From Roseococcus sp. SDR (GTDB taxonomy: Bacteria > Pseudomonadota > Alphaproteobacteria > Acetobacterales > Acetobacteraceae), in assembly GCF_019083995.1 (NCBI RefSeq), contig NZ_JAHRCU010000022.1, positions 1-64,000 on the forward strand: DNA of 64,000 nt. Direction: 5' to 3'. Each line of letters opens with the position of its first letter. The first letter of the stretch is position 1. The position numbers and the translations under genes were made by a program. The notes below the pieces were generated by a model. That model did not search any database and was not told the origin of the DNA. It saw nothing but the letters and a program-made list of their open reading frames with translations. Of this stretch, positions 1 through 60,393 are shown in pieces.

Positions 1-170
1 CGCCGGCCGCTTTGCGGCCGGATGATCCTGCGCTCGCCCTCAGACGCCGGGCGCCCACTTCGTGGGCTTGGCTTCGCCGCGCCACGCGCATCCTCGGCAT
101 CACAGGCGGTTGGGCGGCGCCGGCCGCCTTGCGGCCGGATGGGATTGCGCGGGCCCTCTGGCGTCGGGTG
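1..170 (+). repeat. 117-bp-period structured repeat, copy A (truncated by window edge)
   Basis: The hairpin GGCCGC-(3 nt)-GCGGCC, within a longer CCGGCCGC stem, begins at about 5 and recurs at 122, a 117-bp step. Between the two lies a second hairpin whose arms read CCAC and GTGG around a TTC loop, followed by the conserved GCTTGGCTTCG. The same architecture and spacing occur at 34663-35026 and, inverted, at 46422-46640. Here it lies directly upstream of maeB and no gene is predicted across it. Open frames through it reflect GC-rich, stop-poor sequence. Confidence 0.8.
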
Positions 171-31782: not shown

Positions 31783-34656
31783 TTGAAACACGCCCGCGTC
31801 TTGGCCCTCTGGACCTTGGCGCTGGCCTGGCCCGCGGCCGCGCAGAATCTGCCCTCCTCCTTGCTCGGCCCGCCTTCGCTGCCCTCCACGCTGCCCGGCG
31901 GCGCGCCCCTGCAGGCCCTGCCGCCGAGCGCGCAGCAGGATATCCTCCAGCGCCTGCTCGATGCGGGCGCGGGCCGGCCGCTCGGCAGCCAGAGCCCGAC
32001 GGCGCCGCAGCCTGCCCCCTTCTCCAGCCTCGCCCTGCCCGCACCCACGCCACCGGCGACGGAGGAGCCGCTCTCGCCCATCGAGCAGTTCTTCGAGAAT
32101 CGTCGGCCGCAGCCCGCGGCCATGGCCGCGGCCAATCCGGCGGCGCGCATCCCCGCGGCACCGCAGCCGCTCCGGCAATTCGGCTATGACAGCTTCCGCA
32201 CCAGCCCGCCCGGCGTGCTGGCAGGCCAGGCCTTTGGCCAGCAGCTGAACCAGGCCTCCGGCGCCATCCCCGAGGATTACGTCATCGGCCGGGATGACGA
32301 GCTGGTGATCAGCTTCCGCGGCCGCTCCAGCCAGGACCTGACGCTGCGCGTCTCGCGCGAGGGGATGCTGCTGCTGCCCAACCTGCCGCCGATGCAGGCC
32401 GCCGACCGCACCCTGCGCGACCTGCGCGAGGAGCTGGGCCGCCGCGCCCAGCGCGAACTGGCCGGCGCGGAGGTCTTCATCTCCGTCCGGCAGATGCGGC
32501 AGGTGACCATCTTCGTGGGCGGCGAAGTGCAGCGGCCCGGCGTCGTCGCCCTCTCGCCGCTCGCCAATCTGTTCGATGCGCTGGTGGCGGCGCAGGGCGT
32601 GCGGAAGTCGGGCACGCTGCGCGCCATCCGCGTCGAAGGGCCGCGCGGCCGCCGCGTCGTGGACCTCTACCCCGTGCTGGCCGGCGAGGGGGAGCCGCCC
32701 GACCTGACCCTGCGCGAGGGCGAGCGCATCCTGGTGCCGCCCATCGGCGGCGTGGTGGCGCTGGGCGGCGAGGTCTCGCGCCCCGCCATCTACGAACTGC
32801 CGCCGGGGAGCGGCTCTTCGCCGCTCGGCACCATGCTGCGCCTCGCGGGTGATGCGCTGCGGCCTTCCGGCAACCGCTTCCTGCTGGAGACGACGGATGG
32901 CGAGGGTCGTCGCGCCTTCCGCGAGATCGGCATGCAATCCCCGCTGCGGCGGGGCGACCTGCTGCTGGTGGAGCCGGGCACCGATGTGCAGGCGCAGAAC
33001 CTCCGCCTGACGGGCCATGTCGCGCAGCCGATGACGCGCGCGCTGGGCGGGCGCGGCGCCAGCCTGCGCGGCCTGCTCGGCGATGGCCGCATCGTCCGGC
33101 CCGACCCCTATGCCCGCATGGCCGTCATCCTGCGCACCGATGCGCGCACGCGCGGGCGCCGCTTCCAGCCCTTCGACCTCTCGGCCGTGCTGGCCGGCCG
33201 CGCCGATGTCCACCTGGCCGAGGGGGATGAGGTGATCATCCTCTCGCTGGCGGATGTGCTGTGGCTCTCCAGCCCCACGGTGCAATGGGCGCTGCTGGAC
33301 GAGACGGAGCGCGGCCGGCTGAACGCGGCCCAGGCGCGCATCGCGCCCCCGGCCTCGCCGCCGCCGCAGCCCGCGAGCCTGCTGGCCGGCCTGCCCAGCC
33401 TCGTTCCCGCGCCCGCGCCGGGCATGCCGACGCCGCCGGGTGCGGCGCCCGACCCGGCGCGCGGCCTCGATTGCCCCGCGTTGACGCAGCTCGAGATCGC
33501 GGCGCGCTCCTCGCCGCAGCGTTTTGCCCATGCCCGCATCGGCGGCTTCCGGCGCCTGGGCGAGACGCCCTGCCCGCAGGCCTTTATCGACTATCCGGCG
33601 CTGCTGACCTTCCTGCTCGACAACGCGATGACATTGACGGGCGAGGCGCGGCTGCCCGGCCTCTATCCCATCACCAACGGCACCGGGCTGGACCAGGTTC
33701 TGGCCGTGGCGGGCGGTCTGACCGACACGGCGGATCTGTCCTCGGTCGAACTCACGCGCGAGCCCTCGGACCAGACGAGCGCGATCCCGCTCACGCGCAC
33801 GCTGCTCGACCTGCGCAGCCGCAACTTCGCCGCCGTGCGCCTCTCGCCCCGCGACGGCGTGAGGATCCCGCGCGGCTTCGGCGACCGCGACAACGGGCCG
33901 GTGACGCTGATGGGCGAGTTCCTGCGCCCCGGCGTCTATGACATCCGGCGTGGCGAGCGCCTCTCGGAGGTCATCGCCCGCGCGGGCGGGCTGACGCCCC
34001 AGGCCTATCCCTATGGCGCCGTCTTCACGCGCGAGGCGGCCCGCGCCCGCCAGCAGGAGGGCTTCAACCGCACGGCGCGCGAGCTGGAGATGGGCCTGAT
34101 GCAGGTGGCCGCCGGCACCGCCGTGGTGGGCAGCAGCGGGCGGGGCACGGATGTCTCGGGCGCGGTCGCGGCCGGCCAGCAGCTCGCCGCCAGCCTGCGC
34201 AACATCCCGGCCGCGGGGCGCATGGTGGTGGAGGCCAACCCCGTGGTGCTCGCCGGCCGGCCGGAACTCGATGTGCTGCTGGAGCCGGGCGACCTCATCG
34301 TCATGCCCAAGCGGCCCAATGACGTGACGGTCGTCGGCGCGGTGCAGAACCCGGGCAGCCTGCAATTCCTGACCGGCTGGCGCGCGAGCGACTATGTGCG
34401 GGCGGCGGGCGGCACGCAGCGTTTCGCCGACCCCTCCCGCGCCTTCCTGGTGCTGCCCAACGGGACCTCGGTGCCTGCGGGTCTTGGCGCGTGGCAGCAG
34501 GGCGGGCCGCCCGTGCCGCCGGGCAGCCTGGTGATCGTGCCGAATGATCCCTCGCCCTTCGAATCCTGGGGCTTTCTCCGCGACATGACGCAGATCGCGG
34601 GGCAGCTCGCCATCTCGGCGGCGGCGCTGGCCGTGATCTACCGTGGGGGGAATTGA
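31783..34656 (+). CDS. Large outer-membrane polysaccharide export protein with SLBB domains (Wza/OPX-like)
   Basis: About 957 residues, far longer than Wza (about 380). Signal peptide KHARVLALWTLALAWPAAAQ, a Pro/Ala-rich region to about residue 160, a Poly_export domain (EDYVIGRDDELVISFRG onward), then several SLBB-type beta-grasp segments (VTIFVGGEVQRPGVVALSP; TLTGEARLPGLYPITNGTG; VTLMGEFLRPGVYDIRRGE; VTVVGAVQNPGSLQFLTGW) and a C-terminal hydrophobic segment. TTG at 31783 (GGGGAG 8 nt upstream) gives a clean signal peptide; ATG at 31702 would add 27 residues. It is predicted to form the export channel for the locus. Confidence 0.88.
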   Translation: MKHARVLALWTLALAWPAAAQNLPSSLLGPPSLPSTLPGGAPLQALPPSAQQDILQRLLDAGAGRPLGSQSPTAPQPAPFSSLALPAPTPPATEEPLSPIEQFFENRRPQPAAMAAANPAARIPAAPQPLRQFGYDSFRTSPPGVLAGQAFGQQLNQASGAIPEDYVIGRDDELVISFRGRSSQDLTLRVSREGMLLLPNLPPMQAADRTLRDLREELGRRAQRELAGAEVFISVRQMRQVTIFVGGEVQRPGVVALSPLANLFDALVAAQGVRKSGTLRAIRVEGPRGRRVVDLYPVLAGEGEPPDLTLREGERILVPPIGGVVALGGEVSRPAIYELPPGSGSSPLGTMLRLAGDALRPSGNRFLLETTDGEGRRAFREIGMQSPLRRGDLLLVEPGTDVQAQNLRLTGHVAQPMTRALGGRGASLRGLLGDGRIVRPDPYARMAVILRTDARTRGRRFQPFDLSAVLAGRADVHLAEGDEVIILSLADVLWLSSPTVQWALLDETERGRLNAAQARIAPPASPPPQPASLLAGLPSLVPAPAPGMPTPPGAAPDPARGLDCPALTQLEIAARSSPQRFAHARIGGFRRLGETPCPQAFIDYPALLTFLLDNAMTLTGEARLPGLYPITNGTGLDQVLAVAGGLTDTADLSSVELTREPSDQTSAIPLTRTLLDLRSRNFAAVRLSPRDGVRIPRGFGDRDNGPVTLMGEFLRPGVYDIRRGERLSEVIARAGGLTPQAYPYGAVFTREAARARQQEGFNRTARELEMGLMQVAAGTAVVGSSGRGTDVSGAVAAGQQLAASLRNIPAAGRMVVEANPVVLAGRPELDVLLEPGDLIVMPKRPNDVTVVGAVQNPGSLQFLTGWRASDYVRAAGGTQRFADPSRAFLVLPNGTSVPAGLGAWQQGGPPVPPGSLVIVPNDPSPFESWGFLRDMTQIAGQLAISAAALAVIYRGGN

Positions 34657-34662
34657 GTTGAT

Positions 34663-35026
34663 GCCCTCAGAGGCGTCATGCCGGAGGCGTGCTCTCCGCA
34701 CGACGCGCGGGCTCCGCCCGCTTGGCTTCGCGCCGCCACTGGCGCGCTGACGTGACGCGCGGTCCGGGCGCGCCGGCCGCCGTGCGGCCGGATGAGTTGG
34801 ATGAGTGCCCTCAGACGCCGGGCGCGGGCTCCGCCCGCTTGGCTTCGCGCCGCCGAAGGCGCGCTGACATGGCGGGTGGTCTGGGCGCGCCGGCCGCTGT
34901 GCGGCCGGATGAGTTTGATGAGTGCCCTCAGACGCCGGGCGCGGGCTCCGCCCGCTTGGCTTCGCGCCGCCGAAGGCGCGCTGACATGGCGGGTGGTCTG
35001 GGCGCGCCGGCCGCTGTGCGGCCGGA
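34663..35026 (+). repeat. 117-bp-period structured repeat, copy B (three units)
   Basis: Units begin at 34663 (diverged, with about 27 extra bp), 34807 and 34924; the last two are nearly identical and exactly 117 bp apart. Each has three hairpins: GCGGG-(3 nt)-CCCGC, GCGCC-(6 nt)-GGCGC and CCGGCCGC-(3 nt)-GCGGCCGG, joined by GCTTGGCTTCG and TCTGGGCGCG. It fills the gap between the export gene and the YjbH-like gene, so it is probably transcribed with them. Because 117 is a multiple of 3, frames run through it; these look non-coding. Confidence 0.85.
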
Positions 35027-37259
35027 TTCTCGGAAGGTGGCGCTTCTTCTGATCGGGCTGCCGCTCCTGCTGCTGTCCGGTCCCGCCCACGCCCTCGACG
35101 AAGTGCCTGCCACCGGTTCGAATTTCGGCCGCGTCGGCCTGCTGGAGATGCCCAATGCGCGCTTCCGCCCCGATGGCGTGATCGAGGGCGGCGGCGCCTG
35201 GCGGCGGCAGCGGGAATTCTACTTCGTGAACTTCCAGGCGCTGCCCTTCCTCGAGACCACCTTCCGCCTGAGCGAACGCCTGAACGGTACGCTCGGCCGG
35301 GGCACGACGACGGACCGCGCCTTCGACCTCAAGCTGCGCGTCTGGGAGGAGAATGCCTGGCGCCCGGCACTCGCCATCGGCCTGCAGGATGTGATCGGCA
35401 CCGGCATCTACCAGGGCGAATACATCGTCGCCTCCAAGCGCTTCTGGTCGCTCGACGCCACCATCGGCATGGGCTGGGGTCGCCTCTCCTCGGGGCAGGA
35501 TGTGACGAACCCGCTGACCTATGGCCCGGCCGCCTTCGGCACGCGGCCGCGCAATGTGGGCCAGGGCGGCACCGTCGCCTGGAACAACCTGTTCCGCGGC
35601 CCCTATTCCGGCATCTTCGCCGGCCTCGAATATTCCGTGCCGCCGATCCCCACACCTTGGGGCGCGATCGAGGGCCTGCGCGCCAAGGTCGAGTATTCGG
35701 CCGATGCGCTGCGCGACGAGCGCGGCGGCTATCCCGCCCGCACCACCAACCTGCGCGGCGAGGCGGCGAGCCGCGTCAATGTCGGCTTCAACTGGCAGCC
35801 CAATCCCTATTTGGATATCGGCGCCTCCTTTCTCTACGGCACGGATTTCCTGATCCGCGCCTCGCTCCGGCTCGACCCCAACGCACCGCCGGACCTGCCG
35901 CGCGAGCCGCCGCCGCCGATGCGGCCCCGCCCCGTGGACGGCGCCCCCCTGCCCCCGCCCGAGCCGCTGCGCGGCTGGCGCGAGCGGCTGCTGGCCGCCT
36001 CGGCCGGCTTCGAGGGGCGCATCCAGATGGGCCGCGACGACCGCGAGGGCGAGGCGAGCGAGAACGCCGTGCTGGCGCGCCGCCTCTTCCCCGCGCTGCG
36101 GGCGCAGAGCTTCCTGCCCATCTCGCTCGACCTGCGCGGGGATGAGGCGCATATCGCGGTCTCGGGCGGGCAATACCGCACGCTGGCGCAGGTCGCCTCC
36201 CGCGTGGTGCGCGCGGCGCAGCCCATCCTGCCCGCCCATGTCGAGCGCATCCGCGTCATCTGGGAGCGTGACGGCGTGGTGATCGCGCGGCTCGTCACGC
36301 TGCGGGGTGCCTTCGAGGCGCAGGGGCGCGCCATGGGCAGCGCGGAGGAGATCCTCGCCACCTCGCAACTGCTGCCCGCCTATGACGAAGCGAGCGCCAC
36401 GGCCGCCACGGCCGCACCGCCACGCCTGACCTGGGGCATCGCGCCCGCGCTCAACATCATGGTGGGCGACCCGGAGACGGCGGTGCGCTGGCAATTGGGT
36501 GCCACCGCGGGTGCCAGGCTCGACATCGGCTGGAACAGCGCCATCGTCGGCGCAGTGCAGCAGGCCTTCGCCGGAAACCTCGCCGACGGGCTGCCCAGCA
36601 ACAGCGTGCTGCCGCATGTCCGCAGCGATTTCGCCCGCTATGCCCGCGCCGCCACCACCACCATGCCCGCCCTCTATGCCGAGCGCATCTGGACGCCGGC
36701 GCGCGACGTCTTCGCGCGCGTGACGGCCGGCATGCTGGAGCCGATGTTCGGCGGCCTCTCGACCGAGCTGCTCTGGCGCCCGCGGGACCGCAGCTTCGCC
36801 ATCGGCCTCGACGTGAACTGGGTGGCGCAGCGGCAATACACGCAGAACATCGGCACGCTGGGCTATTCCGTCGTGACGGGCCAAGCCTCGCTCTACCTCG
36901 ATCTGCCGGTGTGGAACCTCTACACCGTGCTGCGCGGCGGGCGGTATCTGGCGGGCGACTGGGGCGGCACCATCGAGATGGGGAGGCGCTTCGACAGCGG
37001 CATCGAGGTGGGTGGCTTCGCCACCTTCACCAATGTCAGCTATTCGCGCTTCGGCGAGGGGAGCTTCGACAAGGGAATCTATGTCCGCGTGCCCTTCGAC
37101 TTCTTCGGCCTGACCACGCGCAACCGCGCCGCGCTGAACCTGCGCCCCGTGCAGCGCGACGGCGGGCAGCGCCTCGCGGTGGACAGTCCGCTCTGGGAGG
37201 TGACGCGCGACGGGCGGGAGGATGCGCTGCGGCGCGGCTATGCGGGCTTCGCGCGCTGA
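35016..37259 (+). CDS. YjbH-like exopolysaccharide outer-membrane protein
   Basis: About 747 residues of the YjbH family, outer-membrane proteins linked to exopolysaccharide secretion. Signal peptide with KVALLLIGLPLLLLSGPAHA, then GRVGLLEMPNARF, family beta strands (PALAIGLQDVIGTGIYQGEY, LDATIGMGWGRLSSG, GVFAGLEY-like), and a C-terminal barrel (GRYLAGDWGGTIEMGRRF, GFFTF-like, SFDKGIYVRVPFDFF). No start has a good ribosome site: ATG 34986 and GTG 35016 lie inside the last repeat unit, GTG 35037 is just past it and loses the basic n-region. GTG 35016 gives the most normal signal. Paired with the export gene upstream. Confidence 0.86.
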   Translation: MRPDSRKVALLLIGLPLLLLSGPAHALDEVPATGSNFGRVGLLEMPNARFRPDGVIEGGGAWRRQREFYFVNFQALPFLETTFRLSERLNGTLGRGTTTDRAFDLKLRVWEENAWRPALAIGLQDVIGTGIYQGEYIVASKRFWSLDATIGMGWGRLSSGQDVTNPLTYGPAAFGTRPRNVGQGGTVAWNNLFRGPYSGIFAGLEYSVPPIPTPWGAIEGLRAKVEYSADALRDERGGYPARTTNLRGEAASRVNVGFNWQPNPYLDIGASFLYGTDFLIRASLRLDPNAPPDLPREPPPPMRPRPVDGAPLPPPEPLRGWRERLLAASAGFEGRIQMGRDDREGEASENAVLARRLFPALRAQSFLPISLDLRGDEAHIAVSGGQYRTLAQVASRVVRAAQPILPAHVERIRVIWERDGVVIARLVTLRGAFEAQGRAMGSAEEILATSQLLPAYDEASATAATAAPPRLTWGIAPALNIMVGDPETAVRWQLGATAGARLDIGWNSAIVGAVQQAFAGNLADGLPSNSVLPHVRSDFARYARAATTTMPALYAERIWTPARDVFARVTAGMLEPMFGGLSTELLWRPRDRSFAIGLDVNWVAQRQYTQNIGTLGYSVVTGQASLYLDLPVWNLYTVLRGGRYLAGDWGGTIEMGRRFDSGIEVGGFATFTNVSYSRFGEGSFDKGIYVRVPFDFFGLTTRNRAALNLRPVQRDGGQRLAVDSPLWEVTRDGREDALRRGYAGFAR

Positions 37260-46369: not shown

Positions 46370-46421
46370 GCCTCGCTCCCGTTGATCACAGCTTCATCGG
46401 TCTTCGCACCCCTGTGAGGAT

Positions 46422-46640
46422 CCGGCCGCAAGGCGGCCGGCGCGCCCAGACTGCGCGTGCCACCCAAACAACCGCCGCGGCGCGTAGCCAAGCCAGCGGA
46501 GCCGGCGCCCGGCGCCTGAGAGCAACCGGGAAACTCATCCGGCCGCACAGCGGCCGGCGCGCCCAGACCGACCTTCTCACCCGCGCGCCCTTGGCGGCGC
46601 GAAGCCAAGCCGGCGGAGCCGGCGCCCGGCGCCTGAGGGC
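46422..46640 (-). repeat. 117-bp-period structured repeat, copy C (two units, inverted)
   Basis: Two units whose CCGGCCGC stems begin at 46422 and 46539, again exactly 117 bp apart, in the opposite orientation to copies A and B. Read on the minus strand, each has the conserved TCAGGCGCCGGGCGC start, a hairpin with CGGC/GCCG arms around TCC, GCTTGGCT, and the CCGGCCGC-(3 nt)-GCGGCCGG hairpin. The middle 20-25 bp differ between units. It occupies almost the whole gap before gltX and ends 8 bp before its ATG. Confidence 0.85.
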
Positions 46641-46648
46641 CTAGCATC

Positions 46649-47977
46649 ATGTCCATCAAACTTCGTTTTGCGCCCTCTCCCACGGGGCATCTTCATGTCG
46701 GCAATGCGCGCATCGCGCTCGCCAATTGGCTCTTCGCCCGCAAGATGGGCGGCGAGCTGGTGCTGCGGCTGGACGACACGGATACGGGCCGCAGCAAGGC
46801 CGAGTATGTGACGGCCATCGAGGAGGATCTGCGCTGGCTCGGCCTGGAATGGGACAGCATGTTCCGCCAGACCGACCGGCTGGACGCCTATGCCGCCGCG
46901 GCCGAACGGCTGAAGAAGAGCGGCCATCTCTACCCCTGCTTCGAGAGCGAGGAGGAGCTGGCCTATAAGCGCGAGCAGCGGCTGCGCCAGGGCCGCCCGC
47001 CGCTCTATGACCGCGCCGCGCTGAAGATGACCGAGGAGCAGTACGCCCGCGCGCTGGAGAACGGGAAGAAGCCCTATTGGCGCTTCAAGCTCTCAGGCGC
47101 CAACATCACCTGGGTGGATGGCGTGCTGGGGCCGCGCGCGGTGAAGCTCTCGGCGATCAGCGATCCGGTGCTGGTCCGCGCCGATGGCTCGCCGCTCTAC
47201 ACCTTCACCTCGGTGGTGGATGATCTGGAGACGGGTGTGACGCATGTGATCCGCGGCGAGGATCACGTGACCAACACGGGCGTGCAGCTCGACATCTGGC
47301 TCGCCCTGGGCGGGCGCAGCGATGCGCTGCATTTCGCGCATCTGCCGCTGCTGACCGATGCGGATGGCGGGCCGCTGTCGAAGCGCATCGGCTCGCTCTC
47401 GCTGCGGCAATTGCGGCGGGATGGGGTGGAGGCGGCCTCCATCACCGGGTATCTCGCGGCACTCGGCACCTCGCAGGATCCGGTTCCGGGCATGCCGGCG
47501 CAGCTGCTTCCCGGTTTTGATCTGATGAGCGTCTCGCATTCCTCGCCGCGCTTCGACCCGCGGCAGATGCTGGCGCTGAACCGCAAGCTGCTGCACGGCA
47601 TGTCCTTCGAGGAGGCGCGGCCGCGCCTGCCCGAGGGCGCGGACGCCACCTTCTGGGAAGCGGTGCGCGAGAACCTGGACCGCATGCCCGAGGTGAAGCA
47701 TTGGTGGGATGTGGTGCATGGCCACATCGCGCCCATCGAGCAGCCGGCGGAGGCGGAGTTCCTGGCCACCGCGCTCAGCCTGCTGCCGCCCGAGCCCTAT
47801 GACGCGACGACCTGGCCCGCCTGGACCGAGGCGATCAAGGCCGCCACCGGCCGCAAGGGCAAGGCGCTCTTCATGCCGCTGCGCCTCGCGCTGACCGGTG
47901 AGGATCACGGGCCGGATCTGAAGGCGCTGCTGCCGTTGATCGGGCGCGAGCGGGCGGCGCAGCGCCTGCGCGCCTGA
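46649..47977 (+). CDS. gltX: Glutamyl-tRNA synthetase
   Basis: Charges tRNA with glutamate. 442 residues, the shorter class seen in alphaproteobacteria that carry two GluRS genes. HIGH-type motif HLHVGN (14-19), RLDDTDTGRSKAEY, and a KMSKS-type loop reading GPLSKRIGS. ATG at 46649 lies only 8 bp after repeat copy C and lacks a clear ribosome site. The C-terminal anticodon-binding part is present (FMPLRLALTGEDHGP). Confidence 0.94.
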   Translation: MSIKLRFAPSPTGHLHVGNARIALANWLFARKMGGELVLRLDDTDTGRSKAEYVTAIEEDLRWLGLEWDSMFRQTDRLDAYAAAAERLKKSGHLYPCFESEEELAYKREQRLRQGRPPLYDRAALKMTEEQYARALENGKKPYWRFKLSGANITWVDGVLGPRAVKLSAISDPVLVRADGSPLYTFTSVVDDLETGVTHVIRGEDHVTNTGVQLDIWLALGGRSDALHFAHLPLLTDADGGPLSKRIGSLSLRQLRRDGVEAASITGYLAALGTSQDPVPGMPAQLLPGFDLMSVSHSSPRFDPRQMLALNRKLLHGMSFEEARPRLPEGADATFWEAVRENLDRMPEVKHWWDVVHGHIAPIEQPAEAEFLATALSLLPPEPYDATTWPAWTEAIKAATGRKGKALFMPLRLALTGEDHGPDLKALLPLIGRERAAQRLRA

Positions 47978-57836: not shown

Positions 57837-58496
57837 ATGCGTTGGGTGTTCCTGTTCCTGGCCCTGTCCGGCCCTGCCCTGCTCTCTCCCGCCTGGGCCC
57901 AGGCCCCGGCGCCCGAGCCCGCCCATCCGCGCCCGCCCGCGCCCCCGGCCGACTCCATCGCGGCGGTGGGCCGGCCGGGCTGGACGGTGGATGAGCGCAA
58001 TGGCTGCTGGGTCTGGAACCCCAACCCGCAGCAGCAGGAAATCGTGATCTGGACCGGCCCCTGCGAGGAGGGGCCCGCGCAGGGCGATGGCATGCTGGAA
58101 TGGCGCTACACCGAGGAGGGCGAGCCGCGCGGCGAGCGCTATGTCGGCAGCCTGGCGCGCGGCAAGATGCACGGCATCGGCACCTTCCTGGATTCCAACG
58201 GCATCGTGTACCAGGGCGAGTGGCAGGAGGGGCGCGAGCAGGGCCGCGGCCTGCGCGTCTGGGCCACCGCCCGCTATGAGGGCGAGTGGCGTGAGGGGCG
58301 GCGCCATGGCCGCGGAATCATGGCCTGGATCAACGGCAATTTCTATCGCGGCGAATTCCGCGACGACCGCCCCGAGGGGCTGGGCGAATATTTCAGCGTG
58401 GAAGGCGGCTGGTTCCGCGGCGCCTGGCTCGCCGGTTGCTTCCGCGAGGGCGAGCGCCAGGCCGCCATCGGCCGCCCGCTGGAGGAGTGCCCGTAA
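57837..58496 (+). CDS. Secreted MORN-repeat protein
   Basis: 219 residues; signal peptide MRWVFLFLALSGPALLSPAWAQ, a proline-rich linker, a short domain (WTVDERNGCWVWNPNPQQQE) and at least four MORN-type repeats (RYVGSLARGKMHGIGTF, VYQGEWQEGREQGRGLR, RYEGEWREGRRHGRGIM, FYRGEFRDDRPEGLGEY). A Cys pair flanks the domain. ATG at 57837 has GGAGG 7 nt upstream. An intrinsic-type terminator lies 33 bp past the stop. Probably a periplasmic scaffold. Confidence 0.83.
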   Translation: MRWVFLFLALSGPALLSPAWAQAPAPEPAHPRPPAPPADSIAAVGRPGWTVDERNGCWVWNPNPQQQEIVIWTGPCEEGPAQGDGMLEWRYTEEGEPRGERYVGSLARGKMHGIGTFLDSNGIVYQGEWQEGREQGRGLRVWATARYEGEWREGRRHGRGIMAWINGNFYRGEFRDDRPEGLGEYFSVEGGWFRGAWLAGCFREGERQAAIGRPLEECP

Positions 58497-58556: not shown

Positions 58557-58563
58557 CCTACGC

Positions 58564-58737
58564 CTTCGGCAGCCGCACGACTTCGCTGGCGCGCGGCACC
58601 ACCTTCGGCAGCCGCACGACTTCGCTGGCGCGCGGCTACGCCTTCGGCAGCCGCACGACTTCGCTGGCGCGCGGCACCACCTTCGGCAGCCGCACGACTT
58701 CGCTGGCGCGCGGCTACGCCTTCGGCAGCCGCACGAC
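58564..58737. repeat. 39-bp tandem array at the 3' end of chvG
   Basis: Four full 39-bp units start at 58564, 58603, 58642 and 58681; a fifth (58720 on) is the actual end of the chvG coding sequence. Alternate units end CACCAC or CTACGC, so the real unit may be a 78-bp dimer duplicated. Thirteen codons per unit keep the chvG frame: past the chvG stop the minus strand reads PRASEVVRLPKV, repeated, with TAG in every second unit. The first unit ends close to the MORN terminator. Confidence 0.9.
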
Positions 58738-60393
58738 GAACCGCGCGCCCAGCACCTTCCCCGCCGCGTCGCGCCGGTTTTCCGCGCTGATGCGGCCGCG
58801 CAGCCCCTCGATGATCTGCTTGGAGATGGAAAGGCCGAGGCCCGAATGCTGGCCGAAGCGTTCACCGCGCGGGCGTTCGGAATAGAAGCGGTCGAAGATG
58901 CCCTCGAGTTTGGCGTCGGGTATGCCGGGGCCCTCATCCTCGACGATGATCTCCACCTCCGCCCCCGCCTCGCGCGCGCGGAGCCAGACATGGCTTGGCG
59001 GCGAGCCGCGATCCGGGCTGAAGGAGACGGCATTGCCCAGCAGGTTGCGGAAGACCTGCACGAGGCGATCCTCCACGCCCATCGCCACCAGCTTCTCGGG
59101 CGCCTCCAGCTCCATCTCCGGGTCGCGCGGCGTGCGGGTCGTGTTGTGCAGCTCGACCAGCACGGCGAGGATCGGGCCGATATCCACCGGCTCCGCCACG
59201 GTGCGCGAGAGCTCGGCATCCACGCGCGATGAATCGGCGATGTCGCCGATCAGCCGGTCCATCCGCACCGCATCATTGGCGATGATGCCGAGCAGGCGCT
59301 TCTGCTGCGCCGGATCCTCCACGCGGCGCAGCGTCTCGATCGCGCTGCGCACGCTGGTCAGCGGGTTCTTGAGTTCGTGGGCCACATCGGCGGCGAAGCG
59401 CTCATTGGCGTCGATGCGCGCCCAGAGCGCGCGGGCGGCGGCCTGGAGATCGCGCGAGAGGATGCCGATCTCGTCCTGCCGGTCGAGCAGGCGTTCGGGC
59501 ACGCTGCCGCTGCGGCCCTTGCCCTGGCGCATCTCGGCCGCCGCACCGGCCAGCTGCAGGATCGGACTGGCCAGCGTGCGCGCCAGATAGAGCGAGACGG
59601 CGACGGTGAGGATGAGGGCGAGGACGAACAGGCCGAGCACGCTGGCACGGATTTCAAACAGGCGCGCATCCACCTCCCGCGCCTCGCGCGTCAGCAGCAC
59701 GATGCCGACGGCCTGGGCGCCGCGCCGCGCCGGTTCGGCGACACTGACGAGAAGGCGGCCATCGGGCGTGCGGCGGATATAGGGGGTGACGCCGCCTTCG
59801 AGGGCCAGGCGCAGCTCGGCCTGGCGCTCCGGGCCGAGATCGGGCTGCCAGTCGAAGCTCTGCGCATCGGGCGTGGTGTCGAGCACGACGGGGTTCAGCG
59901 CCTGGCGCGGCAAGAGGCCCAGCACGCGCTCGTAGAGGCCGGAGACCGTGTCGGAGAGGGCGCCGCGCGGCGCGGGCGCGGGCAAGGGCTCGGTGACGAC
60001 GGCACCGCCCGCCGCCTCGCGCACGCGGCTATCGGCGACGACGAGGCCGGCCGTGTCGAAAAGGCGCGCCTGGGTGTTGGGCGAGGGCTCGACCAGGCGG
60101 CGCAGCAGCGGGCGCGCGACCTCGGGCACCAGCACGGCGCGGTCATCCTGGATGCGGACGGCGGCTTCCGCGATGCCGGCGGCATAGATGCGCGCCTGGG
60201 TGCGCATGGCCTCGACCTCGGCGGCGAGCAGGCCGTTCTGGTACTGATCGAGGTAGAGCAGCGCCGCGGCGAGCAGCGCGGGCGGGAGTGCGTTCACCAG
60301 CAGGATGCGCCGGAGCAGCGGCGAGACCCAGCGGCGCCGGCGGTCGGGCTCCGCCACGCCATCCTCGGGCTTGAGCAGGGGTGCTTCGGGCAT
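58714..60393 (-). CDS. chvG: Two-component sensor histidine kinase, ChvG/ExoS-like
   Basis: 559 residues. TM1 (RRILLVNALPPALLAAALLYL followed by DQYQNGLL, the ChvG-family opening), a periplasmic sensor to about 235, TM2 (VLGLFVLALILTVAVSLYL), HAMP, phospho-acceptor helix FAADVAHELKNPLTSVRSA, and the catalytic domain with N box (NLLGNAVSF), G1 (DEGPGIP) and G2 (HSGLGLSIS). In other alphaproteobacteria ChvG adjoins ChvI and HprK; here the upstream neighbours are ccdB (2 bp) and ccdA, and no response regulator is in the window. The 3' end lies in a 39-bp array. Confidence 0.9.
   Translation of the reverse strand: MPEAPLLKPEDGVAEPDRRRRWVSPLLRRILLVNALPPALLAAALLYLDQYQNGLLAAEVEAMRTQARIYAAGIAEAAVRIQDDRAVLVPEVARPLLRRLVEPSPNTQARLFDTAGLVVADSRVREAAGGAVVTEPLPAPAPRGALSDTVSGLYERVLGLLPRQALNPVVLDTTPDAQSFDWQPDLGPERQAELRLALEGGVTPYIRRTPDGRLLVSVAEPARRGAQAVGIVLLTREAREVDARLFEIRASVLGLFVLALILTVAVSLYLARTLASPILQLAGAAAEMRQGKGRSGSVPERLLDRQDEIGILSRDLQAAARALWARIDANERFAADVAHELKNPLTSVRSAIETLRRVEDPAQQKRLLGIIANDAVRMDRLIGDIADSSRVDAELSRTVAEPVDIGPILAVLVELHNTTRTPRDPEMELEAPEKLVAMGVEDRLVQVFRNLLGNAVSFSPDRGSPPSHVWLRAREAGAEVEIIVEDEGPGIPDAKLEGIFDRFYSERPRGERFGQHSGLGLSISKQIIEGLRGRISAENRRDAAGKVLGARFVVRLPKA

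Follow-up and report, generated by a model that had tools for sequence, protein, structure and literature searches.

The window, by which we mean the whole 64,000-nt stretch of the Roseococcus sp. SDR genome that was analysed, begins at base 1 of contig C22 and contains, according to a covariance model, six copies of a 103 to 130 nt element together with the end of a seventh (Table 1). The six strong copies score 72.9 to 104.9 bits, and the best match outside the arrays scores 17.1 bits. Genes were called by codon usage with a caller made for this analysis; the CCCTCA of copy B1 begins 7 nt past the end of the called gene 31801-34656, and copy C1 faces a gene starting at 46649 that is of the gltX type (Pfam tRNA-synt_1c and Anticodon_2) and, as such, expected to be essential. 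Tandem copies succeed one another at a step of 117 bp, which in arrays B and C is made up of the 103-bp element and a 14-bp spacer. An earlier note, based on the letters of the window, had described a repeat at three places with this common step, one hairpin whose arms differ between copies while pairing is kept, and a second stem that stays constant around a varying 3-nt loop. Repeat analysis and the covariance model confirm the first of these observations, and the other two hold as well: the arms read CCCAC/GTGGG in A, GCGGGC/GCCCGC in B, and GCCGGC/GCCGGC in C1 (with one G-T in copy C2), and the stem CCGGCCGC is constant at seven places.

Contig C22 opens with the same 119 bases that close contig C2, and C2 carries another two full copies, which start 9 nt past tRNA-Leu(gag); because of this overlap and the further copies beyond it, the copy A array extends past what the window shows, and the assembly break falls within that array. 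Contigs C2, C9, C22, C23, C28, C34, C38, and C39 also have copies at an end or no more than about 100 bases from it; element arrays probably break the assembly at those ends, the exact overlap having been seen for C2/C22 only. A separate tandem repeat of 39 bp occupies 58558-58737 (4.5 copies, or alternatively 2.3 copies of 78 bp with 100% match), mostly between the called genes 57837-58496 (+) and 58714-60393 (-).

Table 1. Copies of the element and an associated signal in the 64-kb window
Feature	Position	Strand	Remarks
Truncated seventh copy, 3′ end: terminal hairpin CCGGCCGC-TTT-GCGGCCGG, then GGAT	1..23	+	27.3 bits; 5′ side lost at contig edge; same bases end contig C2
Copy A, full length, subtype II (TTCGCCGCGC / GTTGGGCGGCGCC), P1 arms CCCAC/GTGGG, loop TTC	37..140	+	96.0 bits
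Copy B1, variant, additional hairpin in 5′ arm (CGTCATGCCGGAGGCGTGCTCTCCGCACGACGCGC)	34664..34793	+	72.9 bits for 34693-34793
Copy B2, subtype I	34808..34910	+	104.2 bits
Copy B3, subtype I, sequence same as B2	34925..35027	+	104.2 bits
Copy C2, subtype I	46420..46522	-	94.3 bits
Copy C1, subtype I, 5′ end towards start codon of gltX-type gene	46537..46639	-	104.9 bits
TGAGGG (complement of the element's CCCTCA), proposed Shine-Dalgarno	46634..46639	+	9 nt upstream of ATG 46649; putative role

Anatomy, family size, and position relative to genes

Read from its 5′ end, the element consists of CCCTCARRCGCCGGGCG, hairpin P1, CTTGGCTTCG, a helix P2 around a variable interior, a terminal hairpin P4, and a GGAT end, the core being CCCTCARRCGCCGGGCG-hairpin-CTTGGCTTCG. 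P1 has 6 bp, a loop that is mostly TCC, and an outer stem of 3 bp. Subtypes I and II are set apart by a swap in P2 (GCGCC/GGCGC or GCCGC/GCGGC); short forms of about 79 nt have a simple hairpin in place of P2; other variants, such as window copy B1, have an additional hairpin within P1; and forms from other genera carry more hairpins on both sides of the module. Conserved flanks reach beyond the core (T-rich at -9 to -5, G at -1, TCTC at +1 to +4) and fade by about +24. Three further units of the same genome (L103, L123, and L134, at C10:59405, C17:81123, and C23:12517) are 94-95% alike over 173-181 bp; their 5′ hairpin is long, ATACC...GGTAT ends are present in part, and they are possibly the youngest form of the element. 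At L307, L304, and L239 a second, related module in inverted orientation seems to come after the first (GCAAGGCCGAACGGCCGCCCGAGC... in L307), an arrangement resembling a head-to-head pair.

The family far exceeds the three places in the window. A 117-base query found 58 matches in the Roseococcus sp. SDR genome, and the genome search with a covariance model that the earlier note had proposed in advance (the model being built from 26 copies) found, among the 150 candidates scored, at least 144 at E<=1 and at least 131 at E<=0.001. At the latter threshold the model matches 26 of 60 genomes including our own: all 20 other genomes of the same genus (2 to at least 67 matches each), 2 of 15 genomes representing other genera in the family, and, weakly, 3 of 24 from the remainder of the class. 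An exact pattern for the 5′ module, which overlooks diverged copies, occurs in 5 of 385 genomes of the class (82 places in our own, 1-6 in the four others) and in 3 of 398 genomes of the phylum, all three within the class. Among the matches listed for this pattern are records titled Roseomonas, Falsiroseomonas, Neoroseomonas, Roseococcus, Rubritepida, and Roseicella, and also Azospirillum, Niveispirillum, Croceicoccus, Porphyrobacter, and others; since these include records titled Rhodospirillales and Sphingomonadales, the core motif is present in at least two alphaproteobacterial orders. Judged from the sequences searched so far, the element appears to be an alphaproteobacterial family that is much amplified in the genus of Roseococcus sp. 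SDR. A genome from another family of the class (G046, L052) has 18 weak model matches, the best at 6.7e-7; a divergent branch of the repeat may be present there. One 103-base copy used as a query gave no plasmid or phage match.

After tandem copies were merged and the two weakest of the 144 matches excluded, none of 110 clusters lay within a called gene. On their 5′ side 75 clusters have a codirectional stop codon as neighbour and 31 an opposite start codon, none lying in the stretch for 4; the median 5′ distance is 9 nt for both kinds of neighbour, as measured from the model match, which overstates the distance for variants like B1. Within 20 nt of a codirectional stop or opposite start we find the 5′ end of 70 of 106 clusters, as against the 3′ end of 8. 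By gap type, 36 of 102 clusters are convergent, 63 co-directional, and 3 divergent, compared with 55 divergent among the 212 gaps that measure 30 nt or more within 400 kb of the related genome G015 (p about 1e-7). The element is placed at gene boundaries, and divergent (promoter) gaps are nearly avoided.

In the 20 clusters that face a start codon no more than 12 nt away, the core, read as its complement, gives TGAGGG (18) or TGAGGA (2), located 1-10 nt upstream of the start codon and in 18 of 20 cases at 6-10 nt; the start codons are 19 ATG and 1 GTG, and there is little room for a different Shine-Dalgarno. The element apparently sometimes supplies the Shine-Dalgarno of the downstream gene, that of gltX included. 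Full-length single copies average 93.2 bits in the sense orientation (n=29) and 85.2 bits when facing a start (n=8), and because sense copies outscore start-facing ones, some room is left for selection at the RNA level.

Covariation and the block change of arms

In the 26-copy seed 99.7% of 598 cells are paired, 10 of 23 pairs show two-sided changes, and no cell differs from the commonest pair on one side. A significance test of this covariation had also been proposed in advance: none of 500 shuffles, which ignore the relatedness of the copies, attains any of five measures, and sliding the pairing partners abolishes the signal. A structure-free ranking of all column pairs places two P1 pairs and two P2 pairs at the top. 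An alignment of 76 of 142 copies (distinct, 101-107 nt long, and with CTC intact) yields 221 two-sided, 7 one-sided, and 23 unpaired cells among 1748, and the same copies on RNAalifold's own structure yield 220, 6, and 13 among 1596; nearly all changes are two-sided C-G/G-C swaps.

RNase P from 14 of the 21 genomes of the genus (those whose loci were returned) served as a control and, on its own RNAalifold structure, gave 96 two-sided, 59 one-sided, and 17 unpaired cells among 1627, whereas random 14-copy subsamples of the element average 38 two-sided and 1.2 one-sided; in this comparison the copies of the element are paralogues, so that one inherited arm swap is counted repeatedly, and the RNase P rows are orthologues with constraints of their own. 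The share of G-U is 0.4% over the 23 modelled pairs of the element and 7.9% (149/1896) once the two pairs of constant G/T columns next to P1 are included, compared with 128/1627 in RNase P and 8/128 in six tRNAs; as the latter share of the element equals that of RNase P, we have dropped low G-U as an argument against RNA. The covariation of the element is real but unusual in kind.

Comparison with G015, which is 92% identical to our own genome at one long locus, allows the same question to be put to orthologous copies (9 of the 12 loci with the element in both genomes, one own copy per locus). Over nine pairs and 207 pair cells there are 10 two-sided, 0 one-sided, and 0 broken cells; differences are found at 71 of 324 positions in the P2 interior and at 16 of 279 in linkers and loops; and P1 arms differ in 3 of 9 pairs (for example CCGCC to CGCGC), P4 arms in 1 of 9. 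The arms of orthologous copies change as blocks. Stepwise compensation should leave intermediates, of which the orthologous pairs contain none; gene conversion between copies, or a strict Watson-Crick need as in DNA hairpins, could explain their absence.

Insertion history and the search for a mover

Among 21 loci syntenic with G015 and compared by eye, the element is present in both genomes at 12, a remnant remains in G015 at 4, and G015 has none at 5, although in this last group a remnant may be present at locus 71 and a different hairpin at locus 53. A gltX match was obtained in 20 of 21 genomes and the upstream region read to 260 nt: the element is present in seven, our own included (G000, G015, G019, G014, G008, G005, and G002), a remnant in one (G017), and neither in 12, that is, in 12 of 19 relatives. 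At the twelve element-free loci, again by eye, the upstream frame seems to stop within about 10 nt of the start, mostly in an ATGA overlap. In a tree of gltX from 17 genomes the group carrying the element requires four changes, at least three of them on well-supported branches, and gain or loss of the element must therefore have recurred; compared with shuffles, the presence labels on this tree show no clear clustering. At a second junction, which we take to be glyA-nrdR from our own reading of the genes, 15 of 21 loci could be read: the element is forward after the stop codon in 3, inverted directly before the start codon in 7, and degenerate in 1, and 4 loci, by eye, lack it within 330 nt upstream. 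A T-tract as pre-existing target finds no support in the few empty sites (loci 19, 20, and 72).

We were unable to associate the element with a transposase. A search for the Y1 transposase (RAYT, PF01797) had no match in our own genome, while the same search, as a control, matched 5 of 14 genomes, and an association with RAYT was rejected on that ground. Comparison of the 198 proteins neighbouring copies gave 19 groups, the largest of which has 8 members and resembles, by eye, TctC-type binding proteins; inspection by eye of one member from each of 8 groups, the other 11 all being pairs, recognised no transposase, and among these 198 proteins there is no large gene family that accompanies the copies repeatedly. 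ATACC/ATACT upstream together with GGTAT/AGTAT downstream accompanies 5 of 59 long-form and 13 of 151 other copies; ATACC...GGTAT looked convincing as a terminal repeat in a few long copies but is a minority feature, with one-sided hits in controls too.

The earlier note did not recognise the element as a member of a named family, and neither do we. Rfam release 15 has no match in the window at the gathering threshold, none for 34640-35060 at E<=5, and nothing on the element at nine loci with long forms at E<=0.5; a lone sub-threshold match, BjrC68, lies outside the element on a terminator-like hairpin and was discarded. Literature searches, confined mostly to journals open without subscription, found no description of this hairpin family.

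The closest comparison is with the CGTC REPs, which PMC3733652 describes as single stem-loops of 20-40 bp with a CGTC tag (variants TGTC/CCTC), an 8-9 bp stem nearly always starting with A-T, a loop of 4-5 nt, and a CCA-like tail; as mostly head-to-head dimers, mostly alphaproteobacterial and without a known dedicated transposase; and as located near stop codons in convergent and unidirectional gaps. The element resembles them in being alphaproteobacterial, in lying near stops in convergent and unidirectional gaps, and in the missing transposase (our own mover search covering Y1 and neighbouring proteins), but differs, when compared by text description, in stringing GC hairpins and constant linkers together over 79-130 nt, in occurring mostly singly or head-to-tail, and in having a P1 of 6 GC base pairs, a 3-nt loop, a separate 3-bp outer stem, and no CCA tail. 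The bases before P1 read RRCG, and GACG, the complement of CGTC, is present in only part of the copies. GTAG REPs, whose termini can provide stop codons and whose distribution is called typical of mobile DNA in the same source (PMC3733652), are like the element hairpin repeats dispersed between genes, with RAYT, an IS200/IS605-type Y1 transposase, as partner; unlike them, the element has no conserved GTAG at either end (76-copy alignment) or in its flanks, and its own genome has no Y1 match. Bacterial MITEs such as RUP, NEMIS, and ERIC are given there as 70-300 bp long, non-coding, often beside genes, and of robust secondary structure (PMC3733652); the element shares their size, non-coding nature, gene-side location, and secondary structure as so described, but a general terminal inverted repeat or target-site duplication is not established for it and no parental IS was found.

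A probable mobile repeat rather than a typical structured RNA

We favour, with a probability of about 65%, a non-autonomous, REP/MITE-like family of mobile repeats with a conserved core and perfect GC hairpins, because i) copies are dispersed; ii) relatives lack the element at the same loci; iii) pairing is strict; iv) arms change as blocks; and v) copies are placed at gene boundaries. Copies of the element would be inserted by a trans-acting enzyme that recognises, probably in single-stranded DNA, the hairpins along with both constant linkers, CCCTCARRCGCCGGGCG and CTTGGCTTCG; ectopic gene conversion among copies would then exchange entire arms; and insertions would persist at gene ends, where the gene ahead of a forward copy would acquire it as 3′ UTR and the gene behind an inverted copy would acquire it as 5′ UTR, with TGAGGG and a short, often A-rich spacer acting as the ribosome-binding site.

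The earlier note had argued from the covariation for selection on folding, and so for a structured RNA or a cruciform rather than plain duplication. Preservation of pairing stands (0 of 500 shuffles; 76 copies), but a typical structured RNA is less supported, because two-sided and one-sided changes stand at 221 and 7, compared with 96 and 59 for RNase P in this genus, because the element occurs in both orientations, and because its arms are replaced in blocks; a DNA-hairpin or mobile-repeat reading fits better. A cis-acting RNA in 3′ or 5′ UTRs (an mRNA stabiliser, processing site, or regulatory element) that is selected for its folding could nonetheless account for the strong covariation in the seed and in the 76 copies, for the position of 75 of 106 clusters downstream of a stop codon in sense, and for the higher scores of full-length single sense copies relative to start-facing ones; RNAalifold, moreover, pairs the two constant G/T columns beside P1 in the seed as G-U, which brings the G-U share level with RNase P. 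Yet the gene at the 5′ end is antisense to the cluster in 31 of 106 cases, Rfam offers no match, and folding z-scores are weak (-0.8 to -2.0 for the 4 copies folded), and on balance we think such an RNA rather unlikely. Plain tandem and segmental duplication, with the structure meaningless, would suit the arrays at a 117-bp step and the inclusion of flanking sequence in some array units, but is hardly credible given that dispersed copies have unrelated flanks, that pairing survives a change of arms, and that the core motif is common to more than one order.

An element that ends transcription would be expected where copies are in fact found, in convergent (36 of 102) and co-directional (63 of 102) gaps, and P4 is a strong GC hairpin; some copies also come after a hairpin with a T-run. 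P4 itself, however, has no T-run behind it, the downstream consensus begins with TCTC and the T-rich stretch precedes the hairpins, and a separate terminator-like hairpin with a T-run adjoins the element at some loci (21 and 73, by eye), all of which makes a terminator improbable. Membership in a known REP family, whether GTAG with RAYT or CGTC, we judge more improbable still: the niche at stop codons and in convergent or unidirectional gaps is shared, and CGTC REPs too have no known dedicated transposase (PMC3733652), but a length of 79-130 nt with at least three hairpins is set against one palindrome of 20-40 bp, and the element has no GTAG tag, no 8-9 bp stem starting with A-T, and no CCA tail; GACG precedes P1 in only part of the copies, and our own genome has no Y1 transposase match.

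Returning to the mobile repeat, we wish to raise tentatively, as a possible but doubtful elaboration, that it is an orphan, pan-alphaproteobacterial mobile element in the form of a chain of DNA hairpins, which would land at stop/start junctions, even those that overlap or nearly do, and whose built-in Shine-Dalgarno complement would keep the gene downstream of an inverted insertion translated; whole arms would be replaced from other copies, and the covariation would then stem from recombination rather than stepwise selection on RNA. Such an element would call for a hairpin-recognising enzyme.

A large repeat family that is undescribed in the literature searched joins a class whose movers are an open question; CGTC REPs lack one too (PMC3733652). 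The element is in addition a worked example of covariation that exceeds every shuffle and yet evolves unlike RNase P in these genomes; before a structured RNA is called, it is therefore useful to check the one-sided to two-sided ratio against such a control. The findings further suggest that the repeat can push adjacent genes apart and take over from the ribosome-binding site of a gene of the gltX type. The same separation and replacement are suggested in relatives for a gene that, from our own reading, is presumably nrdR.
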